Source: Haliea alexandrii
Lineage (GTDB): Bacteria > Pseudomonadota > Gammaproteobacteria > Pseudomonadales > Halieaceae
Assembly (NCBI RefSeq): GCF_003719295.1
Contig: NZ_RFLW01000002.1
Coordinates: forward strand, 114,763 to 178,762
Length of the DNA: 64,000 bases
Direction of reading: 5' to 3'
Part shown: positions 27,071 to 36,134 of the stretch, one piece after another
Layout of the letters: each line of letters begins with the position of its first letter
How positions within the stretch are numbered: position 1 is the stretch's first letter
Notes under the pieces: generated by a model
What the model was told of the DNA's origin: nothing
Database searches by the model: none
What the model saw: only the letters and a program-made list of their open reading frames with translations
Made by a program: the position numbers and the translations under genes

Positions 27071-27748
27071 TCAGTTGAGGAACTCGGCTCGGGTGCTCGC
27101 GTTGGATTTGAAGGCGCCGCCCAGCGACGTCGTTCGGGTTCTGGAATTGCTGTCCATCACACCGCGTGACTTGACGCAGTAGTGCACAGCGTCGATAGTG
27201 ACAGCAACATCGTCGGTATCCAGCAGTGCCTGCAGGGCGACGAGAATTTGCTGGGTTAGCCGCTCCTGCACTTGTGGGCGCTGGGCAAAGAAGCGAACGA
27301 TGCGGTTGATCTTCGACAGACCTATGACTTTGTCTTTGGGTATGTAGGCGACACGAGCCAGGCCGTCGATGGTGACGAAATGGTGTTCGCAGGTGCTGAC
27401 AACATCAATGCTGTCGACCTGAACCATTTCCTCCACCTGCATTTTGTTGGAGATCACGGAGATTTTGGGAAATTGTGCGTAGTCCAGCCCGGAAAAAATC
27501 TCGTCGACATACATCTTGGCGATTCGGTGCGGCGTTTCGGCGAGGCTATCATCGTTGAGGTCCAGCCCCAAGGTGCGTGTGATCTCGGTGAATGACTGCA
27601 CGATGCGCCGGTATTTCTCGTCGCGTGTGAGTCCGTTCTGGATCATGGGGGTTTCCAGGCCGCGCTCCAGCAGGGCTTTGCGTACCGTGGCAGCCTCGGC
27701 TGACATCTTGCTCGGGTAAGGAATGTTGCCAGCCAGTGCAGTTTCCAT
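27071..27748 (-). CDS. folE: GTP cyclohydrolase I
   Basis: FolE converts GTP to dihydroneopterin triphosphate, the first step of folate synthesis. The 225-residue protein is collinear with E. coli FolE. The zinc cysteine-histidine set is in TSTCEHHF-like [14 protein letters not shown], and the second zinc cysteine in [10 protein letters not shown]; the core [20 protein letters not shown] is nearly identical. Because the zinc cysteines are kept, it is the type IA zinc enzyme. The ATG at 27748 has a GGAG ribosome binding site at 7 bases; a later ATG at 27706 is less favoured. It is transcribed divergently from the gap operon. Confidence 0.97.
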
Positions 27749-27874: not shown

Positions 27875-27894
27875 TCTGACTCAGGAGGCGAAAC

Positions 27895-28914
27895 ATGACG
27901 CGTGGACAACCGATCAAGATCGGCTTGATGGGCTTCGGCCAGATCGGCCGGCAAGTGTATGACATAGCGGCGCGCAGCGCGGATATCGAGATCGTGGCGA
28001 TAGCGGATATTGGTGAGCCGGCGATTCTGCATTACCTGCTGGGTGCGGAAATGGGTGAGGATGCCTACCAGCTAGAGGGCAATTTCCTTCACAACAAACG
28101 CTTCCGCACTCGGCTTCTGCGCACCGACTCGCCGGCCGAAATGCCCTGGGATGTGTTTGGCGTGGATATCGTTATCGACGCGACCGGCAGGTTTCGTGAC
28201 CGCGCCGCCATGCAGCAGCATTTGCAGGCTGGTGCGCCCCGTGTGCTGCTGCGTACTCTGCCCACCGACCATATAGATCGCTTGGTAATGCCCGGTATTA
28301 ACGCCGACTCGATTCGGCCTGGGGACCGCATGCTCTCTGCAGGCTCGGCCACCACCACCGCGCTGTGCCTGCTGCTGCACGCACTCTCGCGTGATTTCGA
28401 TATCGACTGCGGCAGCATGACCACGGTGCACGCCTACACCTCAGACCAGGTGCTGCAGGACTACGCCGGCAGTGATTTCCGCCGTAGCCGCTCGGCGGCA
28501 GAGAACATTATTCCCAATCAGCACGAGGCGGGAGTCTGGCTGGGGCACGTGCTTCCCGCACTGGCGGGCAAGGTGCTGACCTCCGCGCTGAACGTGCCGA
28601 TTCATCAGGGGTGCCTGCTGGACGTCAATCTCGTTTTTGCCGACAGCGCGGTAACCGCCGATGCCGTCAACGACTGCATGCGTCGGCGTGCGGCCGACTA
28701 CGCCGGCATCGTGACGGTTGTCGAAGATCCCGTAGTGTCCTCAGATGTCATCGGCAACACCCACTCGCTCGTGTTTGACGCCTGGGGCACCATCAAGGCC
28801 GGCAGCAATACCGTCAAGGCGCTGGGCTGGTACGAAACTCTGGGGCACGCCGCGCGCCTGCTGGATGTGGCGCGTCTCTATGCAGAGCTGGATCATCGTG
28901 AGGAGGCTGCGTAA
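27895..28914 (+). CDS. GAPDH-like pseudoenzyme lacking the catalytic cysteine
   Basis: A 339-residue protein homologous end to end to type I glyceraldehyde-3-phosphate dehydrogenase. The NAD-binding turn (LMGFGQIGRQV), the Asp38 region and the base histidine (TVHAYTSDQ, His179) remain. The active-site motif SNASCTTN reads SAGSATTT, so the nucleophile is Ala152. The phosphate-binding TGAAK loop is replaced by NQHEAG (residues 208-213), the FRVP arginine is Asn233, and the C-terminal YDNEWGY is YETLGH. Dehydrogenase activity of the standard kind is therefore unlikely. The frame is intact and well translated (AGGAGGCGAAAC before the ATG). The TAATG overlap couples it to the canonical gap gene, suggesting a regulatory or structural partner role. 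Confidence 0.85.
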   Translation: MTRGQPIKIGLMGFGQIGRQVYDIAARSADIEIVAIADIGEPAILHYLLGAEMGEDAYQLEGNFLHNKRFRTRLLRTDSPAEMPWDVFGVDIVIDATGRFRDRAAMQQHLQAGAPRVLLRTLPTDHIDRLVMPGINADSIRPGDRMLSAGSATTTALCLLLHALSRDFDIDCGSMTTVHAYTSDQVLQDYAGSDFRRSRSAAENIIPNQHEAGVWLGHVLPALAGKVLTSALNVPIHQGCLLDVNLVFADSAVTADAVNDCMRRRAADYAGIVTVVEDPVVSSDVIGNTHSLVFDAWGTIKAGSNTVKALGWYETLGHAARLLDVARLYAELDHREEAA

Positions 28915-29912
28915 TGCGCGTTGCGATCAATGGTTTCGGCCGTATCGGCCGCTCGGTATTTCGCATTCTGGAAAATGACCCGGATATTCAGGTCGTTGTG
29001 ATCAACGACCTGTTTGACCACGCTGCCCTGCGGTACCTGTTGAATTACGACACCGTGATGGGACCATTCGGCAAGTCGCTGCTGCTTGAAGGCGACGAAC
29101 TGGTGACCGCGGGTGGGCGCTGCAAGCTTATCAGCGAGCGCGACCCGGCCGCTTTGCCCTGGGCGGAACTTGGCATAGACGCGGTGGTGGAGGCAACCGG
29201 GGCGTTTCGCAAGCGCGCCCAGCTCGAGGCGCATCTGGAAGCCGGGGCGGGCCGCCTGGTATTGACGGTACCGGCGTCCGACCCAATTGATTACACGGTG
29301 GTGCTGGGGGTGAACGATGCCGGGCTGCGACCGGAGCACCGCATTGTGTCCAATGCGAGCTGTACCACCAATTGCCTCGCGCCCATGGCCAGTGTGCTCG
29401 ATAGCGCTTTCGGTATTGAAGAGGGCGTGATCAATACGGTACACGCCTACACCAACGACCAGCGCCTGGCGGATGTACCGCACTCCGATTGGCGCCGCAG
29501 CAGGGCGGCGGCGGAAAACACCATTCCCACCTCAACCGGTGCGGCAAAGGCGGTGGGTGAGGTGTTGCCGCAATTGAAGGGCCGTTTGCACGGCATTGCG
29601 TCCCGAGTGCCGGTGCCCGACGGCTCCGTTGTCGACCTGTTCGTGAAACTGGCGCATCCGGTCACGGTGGATGCGGTGCACGATGCGGTGCGTGAGGCTG
29701 CCGGTTCGAGTGCGCTGCAGGGGATTCTGGCATTCAGTGAGCGGCCAATCGTGTCGACCGACATCATCGGTAACGCACATTCCTCCATCTATGACGCGGG
29801 CTTCACTGCCGTGGTGAACGAGCGCTACCTGCGCGTGCTGAATTGGTACGACAATGAGTGGGGCTATTCGGCTCGAGTGTGCGATTTGTTACGGAGGTTC
29901 AAGCAGTGGTAA
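28914..29912 (+). CDS. gap: Glyceraldehyde-3-phosphate dehydrogenase, type I
   Basis: This 332-residue enzyme oxidises glyceraldehyde-3-phosphate to 1,3-bisphosphoglycerate in glycolysis, or the reverse in gluconeogenesis. All key residues are present: [13 protein letters not shown], the nucleophile in [14 protein letters not shown] (Cys150), HAYTNDQ (His177), the phosphate loop [24 protein letters not shown] and [12 protein letters not shown]. The NAD-specific Asp32 is in NDLFD. The ATG overlaps the upstream stop by one base, with an AGGAGG ribosome binding site 7 bases before it. It sits between the GAPDH-like pseudoenzyme and PEP carboxylase in one operon. The erythrose-4-phosphate dehydrogenase alternative cannot be fully excluded. 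Confidence 0.94.
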
Positions 29913-32560
29913 GCACCAGAGAAGCGGGCAGTGGCGAACGTTCGGATTACAGTGAGCTGCGCAGTAACGTCAGTTTTCTCGGGCACCTGCTCGGTGACAC
30001 GATAGCGGCGGCGAACGGTGCAGATTTTCTCGCCCTGGTGGAAAAAATCCGGCGCCTGTCAAAATCCGCGCGGGCAGGTGGTGAGGATGCGGCGCACGCC
30101 GAATTGCTCGCCGTCCTGCGCTCTTTGGACAACCAGCAGCTGGTGCCGGTGGCGCGGGCTTTCAGTCAGTTCCTGAATCTCGCCAATATTGCCGATCAGC
30201 ACCATACCGTGTCGCGACAGATGGACCCCCTGTTCTCTGCCTCGCGCAATCTCAGCGGCAGTTTCGAGGCATTATTGGAGGAAGGCGTGTCCCCCGCAGC
30301 CATTGTTGATGCGGTGGCGGCCCTGCGTATCGACCTGGTGCTCACTGCACATCCCACGGAAATCATGCGTCGCACGCTGATCCACAAGCAGACTGAAATC
30401 GGTCGTTGCCTGTCGCAACTTGAGTTGGGCGGGCTCACCCGTCGCGAGCAGGACCAGCTGCATACGCGCCTACGCGAGCTGATAGCGCAAATCTGGTACG
30501 GCGATGATTTCCGTACTGAGCGCCCTTCGCCGGTGGACGAGGCAAAGTGGGGTTTTGCCGTGGTGGAAGACTCGCTGTGGCGCGCCGTGCCCGAGTATCT
30601 GCGTCGACTGGATGCGGCCCTGCAGGAAACCTGCGACAGCCGTCTGCCGCTGGACGCCGCGCCGGTGACCTTTGGCTCTTGGATGGGCAGCGATCGCGAC
30701 GGCAACCCGAACGTGACGGCCGAGGTGACCGCCGAGGTGCTGTGGCTCAGTCGCTGGCAGGCCATCGAACTCTACCTGCAGGACGTGACGCGCCTGGTGG
30801 AAGAGCTTTCGATGACGGTGTGTGACGCGGCGCTGGAGGCGGCTGCCGAAGGCTCGCATGAACCTTACCGCGCTGTGCTGCGCAGCCTGCGGGAGCGCCT
30901 GAAAGGCGACCTGCAGACCATCGAGGCGGCGCTGGCCGGGGAGGTGGTTGACAACACGGTACTCCTGACCGCTGACGACCTCTGGCAGCCCCTGGCGCTG
31001 TGTTATCACTCGCTGCAACACTGCGGTATGCAGGTGATTGCCGATGGCGCCCTGCTGGACCTGCTGCGCCGGGTGCGCTGCTTTGGTGTGCATCTGGTGC
31101 GCCATGACATCCGCCAGGACAGTGCACGACACACCGAAGTCCTGTCGGAATTGACCACCTGGCTCGGACTTGGCGACTACGCGGCCTGGGACGAGGATGC
31201 ACGCTGCGCCTTCCTCCGTCAGGAGCTTGCCAGCCGCCGTCCGCTGGTGCCGCCCCGCTGGGCGCCCAGTGAGTCGGTGGCCGAAGTCCTGGCGACCTTT
31301 GCCGTGATTGCCCGCCAGCCGCGCGAGGCACTGGGTGCCTATGTGATCTCCATGGCGCGGCAGGCCTCCGATGTGCTGGCAGTGCACCTTTTGCTGCGCG
31401 AGGCGGGTTGTCCCTTCGATTTGCCCGTGGCACCGCTCTTTGAAACGCTGGATGACCTGTCCCGGGCCCGTGAGGTGGTGACGGCGTTGCTGGCAGACCC
31501 CTGGTATCGCGGGCACATCCAGGGACAGCTGATGGTGATGATCGGCTATTCGGATTCCGCCAAGGACGCCGGTGTACTGGCGGCCGCCTGGGCCCAGTAC
31601 CGTGCGCAGGAGGAGTTGCTGGCGGTATGTGCTGCCAGCGATGTTCGCCTCACCCTGTTTCACGGTCGTGGCGGGACGATCGGGCGTGGCGGGGCGCCGG
31701 CACAGGCTGCCCTGTTGTCGCAGCCACCGGGCTCGCTGGAGCAGGGCTTGCGCGTGACCGAGCAGGGGGAAATGATTCGCACCAAACTCGGCTGGACCTC
31801 ACTGGCGGTGAAAACCCTGGCGCTGTACACCGGCGCCATTTGCCGGGCGAACCTGCAGACGCCACCGGCGCCAGAGCAATCGTGGCGTGACCTGATGGAG
31901 GAGCTCGCTGCGGGCTCGTGTACCGAGTACCGCCGGGTGATTCGCGAAGAGCCGGATTTCATCGCCTATTTCCGTTATGCCACCCCGGAGCAGGAACTGG
32001 CGGGGCTGCCGCTGGGCTCACGCCCGGCCCGTCGTCGCGGCGGCGGCGGTATTGAAAGCCTGCGCGCCATTCCCTGGATTTTTGCCTGGTCCCAGAACCG
32101 CCTGATGCTGCCGGCCTGGCTGGGAGCGGGTGCCGCCCTGCAGCAGGCGCTGGATGCCGGTCACGCGGGCCGCCTGCGCGAGATGGCCGCCGGCTGGCCT
32201 TTCTTCGCAACGCGTCTGTCCATGCTGGAAATGGTCTACGCCAAGGCGGACACGGGGCTTTCGGCACACTACGATGCCTGCCTGGTGCCCGAAGAGTTGC
32301 AGAGCCTTGGGCGCGCGCTGCGGGCATCGTTACAGCGGGATGTGGGCACGGTGTTGGAGATCAGCGGAGGGGATACGCTGCTTGCCGATTCACCCTGGAT
32401 TCGCGAGTCCATTCAGTTGCGCAATATCTACACAGACCCGCTCAACGTGTTGCAGGCCGAACTGCTACAGCGCCAGCGGCGTGAGCCTGAGGGTGGGCTG
32501 GAACAGGCCATCATGGTCACCTTCGCGGGGATTGCTGCGGGCATGCGCAACACCGGGTAA
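29906..32560 (+). CDS. ppc: Phosphoenolpyruvate carboxylase
   Basis: PEP carboxylase makes oxaloacetate from PEP and bicarbonate (anaplerosis). The 884-residue protein matches the E. coli enzyme in length. It has the catalytic histidine in [14 protein letters not shown], lysine in [10 protein letters not shown] and the glycine-rich [15 protein letters not shown], plus the QNR motif [13 protein letters not shown]. The C-terminal residues NTG are preserved as in regulated PEPCs. The start is a GTG at 29906 (VVSTREAGS), which has GGAGG 8 bases upstream and overlaps the gap gene by seven bases; a longer frame upstream is shadow sequence. Confidence 0.96.
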
Positions 32561-32643: not shown

Positions 32644-33219
32644 ATGAAGAAGACCGCTGTTATGCCCATCCTGTACGTTCTGCTGGCACTGGTTTTGGCG
32701 CCATTGGCGCGGGCAGACAATTACGCAGAAGCGCTGGAGTCGTTTCGCAATGCGGGTGAAAGCGCCGTCTATTTTGACTCGGCTTACGGCTACGCCCTGT
32801 TCCCGACCATCGGCAAGGGGGGTATTGGTATCGGCGGTGCCCACGGCAAGGGGCGGGTGTATCAGCAGGGACATGTGATTGGCGAGGCGACCATGACGCA
32901 GCTCACGGTTGGCTTTCAGCTGGGTGGCCAGGCATTCAGCCAGATTATTTTCTTTCAGAGTGCCAACGCGCTGGAGCAGTTCACCAGCGGTAATTTCGAG
33001 TTCGGCGCTCAGGCAACTGCGGTCGCGATCACCGCGGGTGTTTCAGCAGAAGCGAGTACGGGTGGCGGGGTCAGCGCCGGTGTCAGCGGTGGCCGCAACG
33101 ACGCTTCCACGGCCAGCCTGGGCTATCGCAAGGGTATGGCGGTATTTACCATCGCCAAGGGTGGCCTGATGTACGAGGCGACTCTGGGTGGACAGAAGTT
33201 CAACTTCACGCCGAACTAA
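32644..33219 (+). CDS. SYLF (YSC84) domain lipid-binding protein, secreted
   Basis: A 191-residue protein with a cleavable signal peptide (residues 1-25, MKKTAVMPILYVLLALVLAP, then LARADN). The mature part is a glycine-rich SYLF/YSC84 domain, with GKGGIGIGGAHGKGRVYQ, TVGFQLGGQAFSQIIFFQSA and TRASL-like YRKGMAVFTIAKGGLMYEA. SYLF domains bind phosphoinositides in eukaryotes; bacterial members are periplasmic and of unknown role. The ATG at 32644 is preferred to the in-frame GTG at 32632. The stop overlaps the convergent lutC stop by four bases. Confidence 0.88.
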   Translation: MKKTAVMPILYVLLALVLAPLARADNYAEALESFRNAGESAVYFDSAYGYALFPTIGKGGIGIGGAHGKGRVYQQGHVIGEATMTQLTVGFQLGGQAFSQIIFFQSANALEQFTSGNFEFGAQATAVAITAGVSAEASTGGGVSAGVSGGRNDASTASLGYRKGMAVFTIAKGGLMYEATLGGQKFNFTPN

Positions 33220-33923
33220 AACGGGGCAGTCGCAAGGCTTTCCCTGGCGGCATCTACAGCCGAGGTTGGCGTGTCACCCACCAGGATGACATGCCAGCGC
33301 CGCGGGCCGTGTGCGCCCAGCACCAGTTGCGCCTCCACGTCAGCAGTGCTTGAGGGCCCTGCGATAAACTGAATACCGCGCGGCCAGCTGCCGGCTTGAG
33401 TATCCTGCCGTATCCGCACCCAGGCCTCTTCCAGAGTCGACACAACATCTTCACGGTTCACCAACACCAGATGATCTTCCGGCAGCAGGTTGTTGCGCCC
33501 GGGGTTCGCGCGCCCGGTGAAAGTGACAATGGCGCCGGTTTCGGCAACCCCCAGTTTTGCGTAGCTCAGTGCGGCGGCATCGCCGGCCTCCGCGACCCCG
33601 AAACGAGGCAGCACGCCGCCGTCTCGCCAGGGCATGGCGGCCAGCCTGGGGTCGTTGCCGGCAACCAGCTTGTGCGTGCGAAAGCGTTGGTAGAGATAAC
33701 GACCGATCGCCTGCACCGCGGCGCCACGGTCCCGCGCCAGCTCGACCGTGCCCTGATTGGCCAGTATGTTGGCAAGGAAGGCCGTATGCACATCGGGGTG
33801 GGGCGCGCGGGCAGCCTGTGCATGGCCAAGAGCAGCCAGCGCGTGCGCGATCTCCTCCGGTTCGGTCTCTGTTTCCTGCGCGCGCAGTCGCGCCAGCAGT
33901 TGGGCGCGTGCAGATTCAGCCAC
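33216..33923 (-). CDS. lutC: Lactate utilization protein LutC
   Basis: LutC (LUD domain, YkgG) belongs to the LutABC complex that oxidises L-lactate to pyruvate. The 235-residue protein has the LUD core with SYAKLGVAETGAIVTFTGRANP, LLPEDHLVLVNREDVV and a late FIAGPSSTADVEAQLVLGAHGP, in which the last stretch is the LUD signature for Lut/Lld proteins. The GTG at 33923 overlaps the lutB stop by eight bases and gives the expected length; the long open frame above is shadow sequence. Confidence 0.9.
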   Translation of the reverse strand: MAESARAQLLARLRAQETETEPEEIAHALAALGHAQAARAPHPDVHTAFLANILANQGTVELARDRGAAVQAIGRYLYQRFRTHKLVAGNDPRLAAMPWRDGGVLPRFGVAEAGDAAALSYAKLGVAETGAIVTFTGRANPGRNNLLPEDHLVLVNREDVVSTLEEAWVRIRQDTQAGSWPRGIQFIAGPSSTADVEAQLVLGAHGPRRWHVILVGDTPTSAVDAARESLATAPF

Positions 33924-35346
33924 GTCGTACCCCCCTGCGCCTGCGTGCCGCGTACTGGCCCATGAAGGTACCACCGCCTTCGGGTGCCGGAAAGTCGCGC
34001 TGCCCGGTCCAGCCGCTGGCAAAGGGCATGCGCCGAAAGGCTCCGCGGCGTTTGCCCAGCCAGCCCAACAGGCGCATGGCCCAGCCGGTGAAACGTTGGT
34101 AGAGGGCAGGGTGACGCAACAGCCAGGCGTGTAGGCGCAGCCCATGGCGCCAGCGCGCGGGCTTGATACGCTGCACACTCTCGTCCTGGCGCAGGTCACG
34201 CAGCAGGTCCGGCAGCGGTATGTTTGCCGGGCACACCTCCGCGCAGCGACCACAACTGGTACAGGCGTTGGGTAGGGCGTGCGCCTGCTCCAGCGAGGTG
34301 AGCAGCGGTGTCAGCACGGACCCCATGGGCCCCGGGTACACCCAGCCGTACGGGTGGCCGCCTACACCGATGTAAATGGGGCAGTGATTGAGGCAGGCAC
34401 CACAGCGGATACAGTCGAGTATCTCCCGGTAGTCGCTGGCCAGGATGTCACTGCGCTTGTTGTCGAGCAGAATGATGTGGGTTTCCAGCGGCCCATCGGG
34501 ATCGTCTTCCCGCCGCGGGCCGGAATAGAAACTGGTGTAGCAGGTTTGCGGCTGACCCGTGGCCGAGCGCACCAGCAGGCGCTGCAGCGCCATGGCGTCT
34601 TCCGCGCGAGGCAACAGGCGTTCAAAGGTCGTGCACACAATCAGCACCGGCGGCAGGTTGGCGCAGAGGTCGCCGTTGCCTTCGTTGGTCACCAGCATGC
34701 TGGTACCGTGTTCGGCGACCAGCGCATTGGCGCCAATGATGCCCACATCCGCTGCGAGAAACTGTTCGCGCAAAATCCCGCGCGCCTCTTCAACTACCTC
34801 ACTCGCCGTTTCCAGGCCGCGCTCGCCCAGTTTGTGTTTGTCGAGAAACAGTTGCCGGATCTCGGCCAGCGACTTGTGAAAGGCCGGGCCCACAATGTGG
34901 CTCGGGGTCTCACCCGCCTGTTGAATAATGTACTCCCCGAGGTCGGTTTCCAGCACCTCAAGTCCGGCCTTGAGCAGCAGCTCGTTGAGACCGGTTTCTT
35001 CGGTAACCATCGACTTGCCCTTGGCTACCCGCCTGGCGCTGTGTGCCTGGCAGATCGACAACACCTTACTATTGAGCTGCTCGGCGTCGGCAACGAAATG
35101 CACCTGGTTGCCGTGTTGTACCGCAGCTTCCTCGAACTGTTGCAGGTAATGGGAGAGGTGCTCGCTGGTATGTCGGCGCACCCGTTTCATGTGCGCTCTC
35201 AAGGCGTCGAAGTCACCGTATTTGCTGGCGGCGCTGTCCCGGGCCAGCGGCAGGAACTGGCCGAGCAGGTTGCGCCGCGCCACTTTTTCCGGCGCGTTGA
35301 GGGCAGCGCTCGCTTCCTGCAGAAAGTTGTCGCTGGCGAGTTTCAT
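33916..35346 (-). CDS. lutB: Lactate utilization iron-sulfur protein LutB
   Basis: LutB is the 4Fe-4S subunit of the LutABC L-lactate oxidation complex, found at the cytoplasmic membrane. The 476-residue protein has an N-terminal LUD domain (ADVGIIGANALVAEHGTSML) and two ferredoxin cysteine sets, CIRCGACLNHCP and CTSCGRCAEVCP, in the C-terminal third. The arrangement Cys-x2-Cys-x2-Cys-x3-Cys-Pro occurs twice as in Bacillus LutB. The ATG at 35346 overlaps the lutA stop by four bases. Confidence 0.94.
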   Translation of the reverse strand: MKLASDNFLQEASAALNAPEKVARRNLLGQFLPLARDSAASKYGDFDALRAHMKRVRRHTSEHLSHYLQQFEEAAVQHGNQVHFVADAEQLNSKVLSICQAHSARRVAKGKSMVTEETGLNELLLKAGLEVLETDLGEYIIQQAGETPSHIVGPAFHKSLAEIRQLFLDKHKLGERGLETASEVVEEARGILREQFLAADVGIIGANALVAEHGTSMLVTNEGNGDLCANLPPVLIVCTTFERLLPRAEDAMALQRLLVRSATGQPQTCYTSFYSGPRREDDPDGPLETHIILLDNKRSDILASDYREILDCIRCGACLNHCPIYIGVGGHPYGWVYPGPMGSVLTPLLTSLEQAHALPNACTSCGRCAEVCPANIPLPDLLRDLRQDESVQRIKPARWRHGLRLHAWLLRHPALYQRFTGWAMRLLGWLGKRRGAFRRMPFASGWTGQRDFPAPEGGGTFMGQYAARRRRGVRRG

Positions 35347-36134
35347 TCGCGGCCATCCCCTATGCCCGGCCCGCGAGGCTCGCCGACCAGCAGTTCAGCG
35401 ACATGCCGGAACTCCAGGTCCACGCCTCTGCGTCGCGCTCGGCCGGCCAGATGCAGGAGGCAGCCGAGATCTCCGCCGGCAACGATTGTGGCGCCGCTGG
35501 CCACCGCATCGTCCAGCTTGTCGTCAGCCATTTTTCCGGAAATTTCCGGCATGCGCGCGCAGAAAGTGCCACCGAAGCCACAACACACCTTGTTCTGGCT
35601 CAGCTCCTGCACCTGGGCGCCACATTGCTCCTGCAGTAATTGCCGTGGCTGCTGCTGCACGCCGAGCTCACGCAATCCGGCGCAGCCGTCGTGGTAGGTG
35701 ATGGCGCTCTCCAGCGGCGGACGCTTCGGTGCCGGCAGGCGCGCTACTTCCGTGAGAAACCGGGTGAGCTCCCAGGTCTTGGCGGCAAGGGCCAGGGCGC
35801 GGTCACGCCACTCGCCCTCGAACAGTGCGGGATAGTGGTGGCTGAGCATACCCGCGCAGGAACCGGACGGCACGACCACGTAGTCGAAGGGCTCGAATGT
35901 CTCAATGACTGCGCGTGCAACGGGCACTGCCGCATCAATTTCGCCACTGTTGTAGGCGGGTTGTCCGCAACAGGTTTGCTGCTCGGGCACGCTCACACGG
36001 CAGCCGGCGCGCTCCAGCAGGCGTATGGCGGCAAAACCGACTGAGGGGCGCATCAGATCTGCCAGGCAGGTGACCATCAATGCCACATCGCGCCGCTGAC
36101 GGCTGCGTTTGCGTTTTGGGTGTGGCTTGTCCAT
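35343..36134 (-). CDS. lutA: Lactate utilization protein LutA
   Basis: LutA is a cysteine-rich (CCG domain) oxidoreductase of the LutABC L-lactate oxidation pathway. The 263-residue protein has both CCG motifs, QQTCCGQPAYNSG and VCCGFGGTFCARM, with HDGCAGLRELGV before the second. Two CCG domains bind an iron-sulfur or heterodisulfide centre. The ATG at 36134 begins the operon lutA-lutB-lutC; no lactate permease or LutR-type regulator adjoins it here. A basic N-terminal tail (PKRKRSRQRR) precedes the domain. Confidence 0.93.
   Translation of the reverse strand: MDKPHPKRKRSRQRRDVALMVTCLADLMRPSVGFAAIRLLERAGCRVSVPEQQTCCGQPAYNSGEIDAAVPVARAVIETFEPFDYVVVPSGSCAGMLSHHYPALFEGEWRDRALALAAKTWELTRFLTEVARLPAPKRPPLESAITYHDGCAGLRELGVQQQPRQLLQEQCGAQVQELSQNKVCCGFGGTFCARMPEISGKMADDKLDDAVASGATIVAGGDLGCLLHLAGRARRRGVDLEFRHVAELLVGEPRGPGIGDGRE

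Follow-up and report, generated by a model that had tools for sequence, protein, structure and literature searches.

A 64,000-nucleotide stretch of Haliea alexandrii DNA, here called the window, encodes GapX, a 339-residue paralogue of glyceraldehyde-3-phosphate dehydrogenase (GAPDH). Sequence comparisons support its reading as a GAPDH pseudoenzyme with a dead active site. On balance, GapX is probably a dedicated non-catalytic subunit that joins and tunes the neighbouring Gap; the complex, its ligand, and the direction of regulation are points that we infer.

The gapX gene (27895..28914, plus strand) was delimited as an open reading frame with an ATG start and a TAA stop, and was assigned by Pfam, alignment, and a fold model. 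Reading of the sequence placed a Shine-Dalgarno motif, AGGAGG (27883..27888, plus strand), 6 bases ahead of the ATG. The partner gene, gap (28914..29912, plus strand), was identified as an open reading frame with a profile match, and its catalytic residues are present in the alignment. Its own Shine-Dalgarno motif, GAGGAGG (28900..28906, plus strand), was read within the final gapX codons, and the gapX stop (28912-28914) and gap start (28914-28916) overlap by one base in TAATG. An earlier note on this DNA had described an intact frame with a strong ribosome-binding site, translationally coupled to gap, and these motifs agree with that description. The pair is followed on its 3' side by ppc, encoding PEP carboxylase (29858..32560, plus strand; NF000584, 1083.8 bits versus a cut-off of 815); since the NF000584 match begins only at residue 34, the true ppc start is probably after 29912. 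The divergent neighbour folE (27071..27748, minus strand), assigned by an NCBIfam model, lies outside the proposed gapX-gap unit. Elsewhere in the window, the minus-strand genes at 33216-36134 resemble lactate-utilisation Lut genes by eye.

GapX and the Gap of the window are 40% identical (132/332). The full-length kinship with GAPDH claimed in the earlier note held, with both Pfam domains above cut-off (Gp_dh_N, 61 bits against 31.7; Gp_dh_C, 127 bits against 24.4), which places GapX in the GAPDH fold superfamily. On TIGR01534, the type I GAPDH equivalog model (cut-off 367.2 bits), GapX scored below the cut-off at 236.5 and the partner Gap above it at 401.9. Nor was GapX an erythrose-4-phosphate dehydrogenase by NF010058 (171.7 versus 539) or an ArsJ-associated GAPDH by NF033735 (158.1 versus 450). 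Five GAPDH-family genes were found in the genome that holds the window: gapX, gap, an ArsJ/PRK08955-type gene, an Epd-like gene just below cut-off, and a long PRK08289-type gene.

Active-site positions were compared across 46 distinct GapX sequences (the query included), 3 distant GapX sequences, 48 partner Gaps, and 33 other GAPDHs, after duplicates and one PRK08289-type paralogue had been dropped and broken copies left out. Numbering and residue roles follow general background on GAPDH, save those resting on PMC5119734. In the window protein, SNASCTTN has become SAGSATTT, and translation and alignment place Ala152 in the position of the catalytic Cys149; its GCC codon is at 28348..28350 (plus strand), not at 28350-28352 as the earlier note had it. 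The inorganic-phosphate loop is replaced by NQHEAG (residues 208-213; 28516..28533, plus strand), the phosphate-binding Arg231 by Asn233 (28591..28593, plus strand), and YDNEWGY by YETLGH, while the base histidine is retained as His179 (equivalent to His176), all as previously described. The nicotinamide asparagine, also reported lost, is indeed absent from the window protein (Thr315), but its loss is no family trait: position 313 is Thr in 20, Asn in 18, and Ser in 8 of the 46 sequences, and Asn in all three distant ones.

Across the family, position 149 is Ala in 34, Pro in 7, Gly in 3, and Ser in 2 of the 46 GapX sequences and Ser in 3/3 distant copies, compared with Cys in 81/81 other GAPDHs. 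Position 231 is Asn in 49/49 GapX and Arg in 81/81 other GAPDHs, and position 206 is Asn in 49/49. Thr208 is lost in 43/46 and retained in the remaining three and in the three distant copies, in which Gly209 is Trp. Deletions remove residue 314 in 45/46 and residues 51-53, at the Q interface, in 44/46. His176 is present in 49/49 GapX; Ser148, Asp33, Asp186, Arg194, Arg197, and Asp282 are, like His176, found in all 46, and Thr179 in 44. Thus, compared with type I phosphorylating GAPDHs (E. coli GapA and the partner Gap), GapX shares the fold, the two Pfam domains, His176, Ser148, Asp33, Thr179, and the S-loop, but lacks Cys149, Arg231, and mostly Thr208, and residues 314 and 51-53 are mostly deleted. 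At the coenzyme site, glycines 8 and 10 are kept, like Asp33, in 46/46; Asn7 and Asn32 are replaced in 46/46 and Arg11 in 41/46, position 77 is Asp in 37/46, and Thr119, which we take to lie beside the nicotinamide, is Arg in 32/46. Whether GapX would bind NAD is uncertain from these residues. In the three distant copies the catalytic position is Ser and a Cys lies three residues before it. These copies, which also keep Asn313 and Gly51/Phe53, are a less strongly modified version of this pseudoenzyme. A catalytic Cys shifted nearby was considered and rejected as a family trait, as Cys at the Asn146 position occurs only in these three.

GapX and its partner Gap were found in the same genomes in overlapping samples of relatives, order, and class. 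GapX orthologues, 58-97% identical to the query, were present in 32/58 relatives (own genome included); the partner Gap (at least 73% identity) was present in the same 32 and in none elsewhere among the matches listed, and 26 relatives had neither gene. In the order sample, 32/390 genomes carried GapX and the same 32 carried the partner Gap (at least 66% identity). The next Gap among the matches listed there, from genomes without GapX, was 57% identical over part of its length, and others were at most 54% identical. The class sample of 369 genomes contained, besides the query genome, three of one genus with GapX (~40% identity) and the partner Gap (62-64%). No further GapX was recognised in the phylum sample of 349 genomes, with 36 matching genomes at E <= 1e-80; the best match outside the query genome scored 287 bits versus 569 for GapX, and Cys149 was present in all 11 that were inspected of the 35 other matching genomes. 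The carriers are a group of mostly marine bacteria. Ten GapX loci of one search bore Haliea, Halieaceae, Halioglobus, Pseudomaricurvus, Mangrovimicrobium, and Chromatocurvus titles. The nearest named relative found was Haliea salexigens DSM 19537, with a 97% identical GapX. In one genome gapX appears in two pieces, and what is apparently the same locus in another record has a run of N there; in a further genome the partner gap is truncated by a contig end. Two genera have the pair in some genomes and a lone Gap of another subclade in others, as if the pair had been gained and lost as a unit. Six lone-Gap loci, some of them in these two genera, form a separate subclade that is ~53% identical to the partner Gap.

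The main rival of the subunit reading gives GapX a role of its own, in binding a ligand or in Cys-free catalysis: it would be a different enzyme or a stand-alone sensor for another metabolite of sugar breakdown, independent of Gap. Such a role would suit the retention of His176, Ser148, and Thr179 next to the new Asn208 and Asn233, and it would suit the state of the former catalytic columns, which are altered yet conserved (mean majority frequency 0.82 versus 0.67 for the rest). At ten positions, one residue is fixed or almost fixed (at least 93%) in GapX and the distant genus yet rare in the 81 active GAPDHs, with Met12, Asn208, and Asn233 occurring in 0/81; because of these residues, the pocket appears refitted rather than just broken. 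We nonetheless consider this role rather unlikely. It leaves unexplained that the partner Gap was never encountered without GapX, and the replacement of Asn7 and Asn32 in 46/46 and of Thr119 by Arg in 32/46 also speaks against it.

Returning to a subunit made for Gap, gapX lies directly 5' of gap, in the same orientation, in 48/48 distinct pairs with both genes readable. The junction is a 1- or 4-base overlap in 41 of the 48, and in the remaining seven the genes are separated by 0 to 15 bases. The gap Shine-Dalgarno motif falls inside the gapX end at many other junctions as well as in the window, and translational coupling of gapX to gap is supported by these sequence features. The tandem order could serve equal expression alone. 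As the final GapX residues are encoded by the gap Shine-Dalgarno region (28900-28914), protein conservation there may reflect an RNA signal, and an EEAA-type conserved C-terminus was rejected as a functional tail because this motif is the simpler explanation.

Gene neighbourhoods were compared at 51 loci, mostly from Halieaceae and their order, of which 47 had 2 kb of upstream and 46 had 3.5 kb of downstream sequence; for zwf, edd, glk, pgl, eda, ppc, and folE, one example each was assigned by an NCBIfam model above cut-off and the others by similarity. The gap-ppc synteny highlighted earlier was partial, with ppc directly downstream in 27/51 loci and missing there in 24. Directly upstream of gapX, eda was found in 15/51 loci, all 15 with ppc downstream. 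We found zwf at 4/51 loci, and 34/51, the window included, had no eda, zwf, or glk in their vicinity. Three loci combine zwf, pgl, edd, eda, gapX, gap, and ppc; one has glk behind gap, one an eda-edd-pgl-zwf cluster on the opposite strand, and one a galactonate-type aldolase ~7 kb off. The window locus reads folE (minus strand), gapX, gap, ppc, with edd elsewhere in the genome, which also has a PFK-family gene. The Entner-Doudoroff aldolase yields glyceraldehyde 3-phosphate, and the eda and zwf neighbours tie gapX-gap to Entner-Doudoroff glucose use, although the link is partial. Most likely, the pair serves glucose breakdown by this route; other routes are possible. A Halieaceae genomics paper describes a complete Embden-Meyerhof route in six strains and finds that only one strain lacks the Entner-Doudoroff route; the word "glyceraldehyde" is absent from its main text (PMC10100682).

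The same neighbourhoods bear on whether GapX might be a ligand-free helper of assembly, dosage, or channelling, such as a scaffold between Gap and KDPG aldolase or between Gap and PEP carboxylase. Adjacency of eda, gapX, gap, and ppc in 15/51 loci, together with coupled translation, would fit this role. However, ppc is missing directly downstream in 24/51 loci and eda directly upstream in 36/51, and a conserved, refitted pocket would be superfluous in a helper, which makes this explanation improbable in our view.

The history of the pair was examined with a quick tree of 83 rows (22/46 GapX, 3 distant GapX, 25/48 partner Gap, and 33 other GAPDHs). GapX and the distant genus formed a single clade (SH-aLRT 99), bearing out the idea that the Cys-less copies share a single origin in the tree; even the most distant genus carries both GapX and Gap. 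The partner Gap also formed a single clade (SH-aLRT 93), and the GapX clade, the partner Gap clade, and six lone Gaps formed one group (SH-aLRT 95). This topology fits one Gap duplication after which the upstream copy probably lost catalysis. Purifying selection on GapX, which the earlier note had left to a dN/dS check, was evident in an omega of 0.03-0.18 in 13/14 hand-chosen pairs, the remaining pair giving no dS; for the partner Gap, omega was 0.02-0.16 in 14 pairs. At least half of the dS values exceeded 1; omega was 0.03-0.08 in the four GapX pairs whose dS was 0.62 or lower. GapX distances were ~1.6x those of Gap (mean 0.39 versus 0.24). Across 25 ppc-bearing loci, GapX and Gap distances remained correlated once ppc was taken into account, with a partial r of 0.66; the corresponding values were 0.25 for GapX with ppc and 0.37 for Gap with ppc. 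This is weak evidence because gapX, gap, and ppc are neighbours.

A decaying duplicate retained just for the gap ribosome-binding site in its end would account for the Shine-Dalgarno motif in the last gapX codons of the window and many loci, but low omega, frames open for more than 300 residues in 49 aligned copies, and new residues fixed across the clade led us to reject it as the main reading and to regard it as very improbable. A sequencing or assembly error masking a normal GAPDH has a negligible chance of being correct and is refuted by the same substitutions in independent genomes, among them the 97% identical Haliea salexigens DSM 19537 copy, with Cys in 0/49 aligned copies. Overall, the earlier interpretation stood on the pseudoenzyme, purifying selection, coupling, and the single Cys-less clade; its synteny was only partial, and the eda context had been overlooked.

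For the proposed subunit, an AlphaFold2 monomer model had the GAPDH fold (pLDDT 86.6, pTM 0.86), with the S-loop (residues 181-206; 28435..28512, plus strand) below 50. The 50 Foldseek rows listed for this model were all GAPDHs, 2ep7 among them, with TM-scores by query length of 0.83-0.88. Conservation in GapX peaks at the S-loop, which is overlapped by all six of the most conserved among 302 GapX windows. In a tethered GapX-Gap model the Gap S-loop (521-548) was likewise low-scoring, so the low score is not special to GapX. That tethered fold gave a pTM of 0.58, no confident packing, and hence no support for a mixed dimer, with the GapX half on two rows, no linker, and no control pair.

In GAPDH, coenzyme-site residues and the S-loop form the R interface, and residues 43-53 together with 274-291 form the Q interface (PMC5119734). 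With interface column ranges transferred by offset onto the GapX/Gap alignment, the two consensus sequences agreed at 16/23 R columns, 10/15 Q columns at 271-288, 3/11 Q columns at 42-52, and 17/47 P columns, and at 9/19 N-domain coenzyme-site columns, 7/23 catalytic columns, and 73/190 of the remainder. This pattern fits a GapX that may still enter a GAPDH-type oligomer, with its partner in that oligomer unspecified. Because the S-loop is conserved in GAPDHs generally, its retention equally fits a GapX homotetramer. The deletion of Q residues 51-53 in 44/46 sequences counts against a mixed oligomer, as does agreement with Gap at P columns that is no better than at the rest. The GapX-Gap pairing, invariable in the genomes sampled, together with the kept S-loop leads us to favour the regulatory hetero-oligomer that the earlier note had suggested.

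We propose that gapX and gap would be made from one message via translational coupling, and that GapX would join Gap in a mixed oligomer. Retention of the GapX S-loop would let GapX pack onto Gap through the R interface, placing it beside the coenzyme site of Gap. The GapX pocket would be unable to hold the acyl-enzyme or phosphates and may have been refitted, through Asn208, Asn233, Met12, and Ser183 with His179 kept, for another ligand, which might be NAD(H) or a sugar acid. In this way GapX would adjust the rate at which Gap oxidises glyceraldehyde 3-phosphate from the Entner-Doudoroff aldolase. A bolder version, which we hold only tentatively and think unlikely in full, casts GapX as a bacterial glycolysis prozyme whose pocket would sense 6-phosphogluconate, KDPG, or the NADH state and switch the attached Gap on, so that feed-forward control would have arisen from a killed tandem GAPDH copy.

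Both a Cys-less GAPDH-like protein in trypanosomes and a dead activating paralogue in deoxyhypusine synthase are already described. TbGAPDHL, a trypanosomatid flagellar GAPDH-like protein, has its catalytic Cys replaced by Pro; the passages used suggest that a coenzyme-site ligand is retained and put interspecies conservation much lower than in active trypanosomatid GAPDHs (PMC4106842). It shares with GapX the GAPDH fold and a replaced catalytic Cys, which in GapX is Ala, Pro, Gly, or Ser. Unlike GapX, TbGAPDHL is eukaryotic and flagellar, and those passages mention no pairing with an active GAPDH gene (PMC4106842); the likeness drawn here is one of description. In deoxyhypusine synthase a dead paralogue is reported to join and activate its active twin (PMC3663545), and the AdoMetDC prozyme is likewise described as a prozyme-type dead paralogue (PMC6221367). 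Prozymes and GapX are alike in being paralogues of their partners that lack a catalytic residue, the inactivity of GapX being read from sequence. Prozymes are other proteins in other pathways, and complex formation and activation are reported for them in these accounts, whereas for GapX we infer both. The chloroplast GapA/GapB heterotetramer and the control of GAPDH by CP12 are examples of a hetero-oligomeric, regulated GAPDH, as proposed for GapX; GapB is catalytically active, whereas GapX appears dead, and CP12 is a small, unrelated protein. The CP12 complexes 6ghr and 6gve were among the Foldseek rows for the GapX model.

Few enzymes have been studied as much as GAPDH, and to our knowledge the bacterial enzyme is treated as a homo-oligomer. 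No bacterial pseudo-GAPDH was found among the matches listed when titles and abstract openings of the open-licence literature on GAPDH pseudoenzymes and dead paralogues, and on interfaces or Halieaceae metabolism, were searched. Annotation from GAPDH domains alone would class gapX as an active GAPDH. A conserved dead twin that is apparently co-translated in many genera, and unseen apart from Gap in the sampled genomes, suggests that bacterial GAPDH may have a dedicated control subunit.
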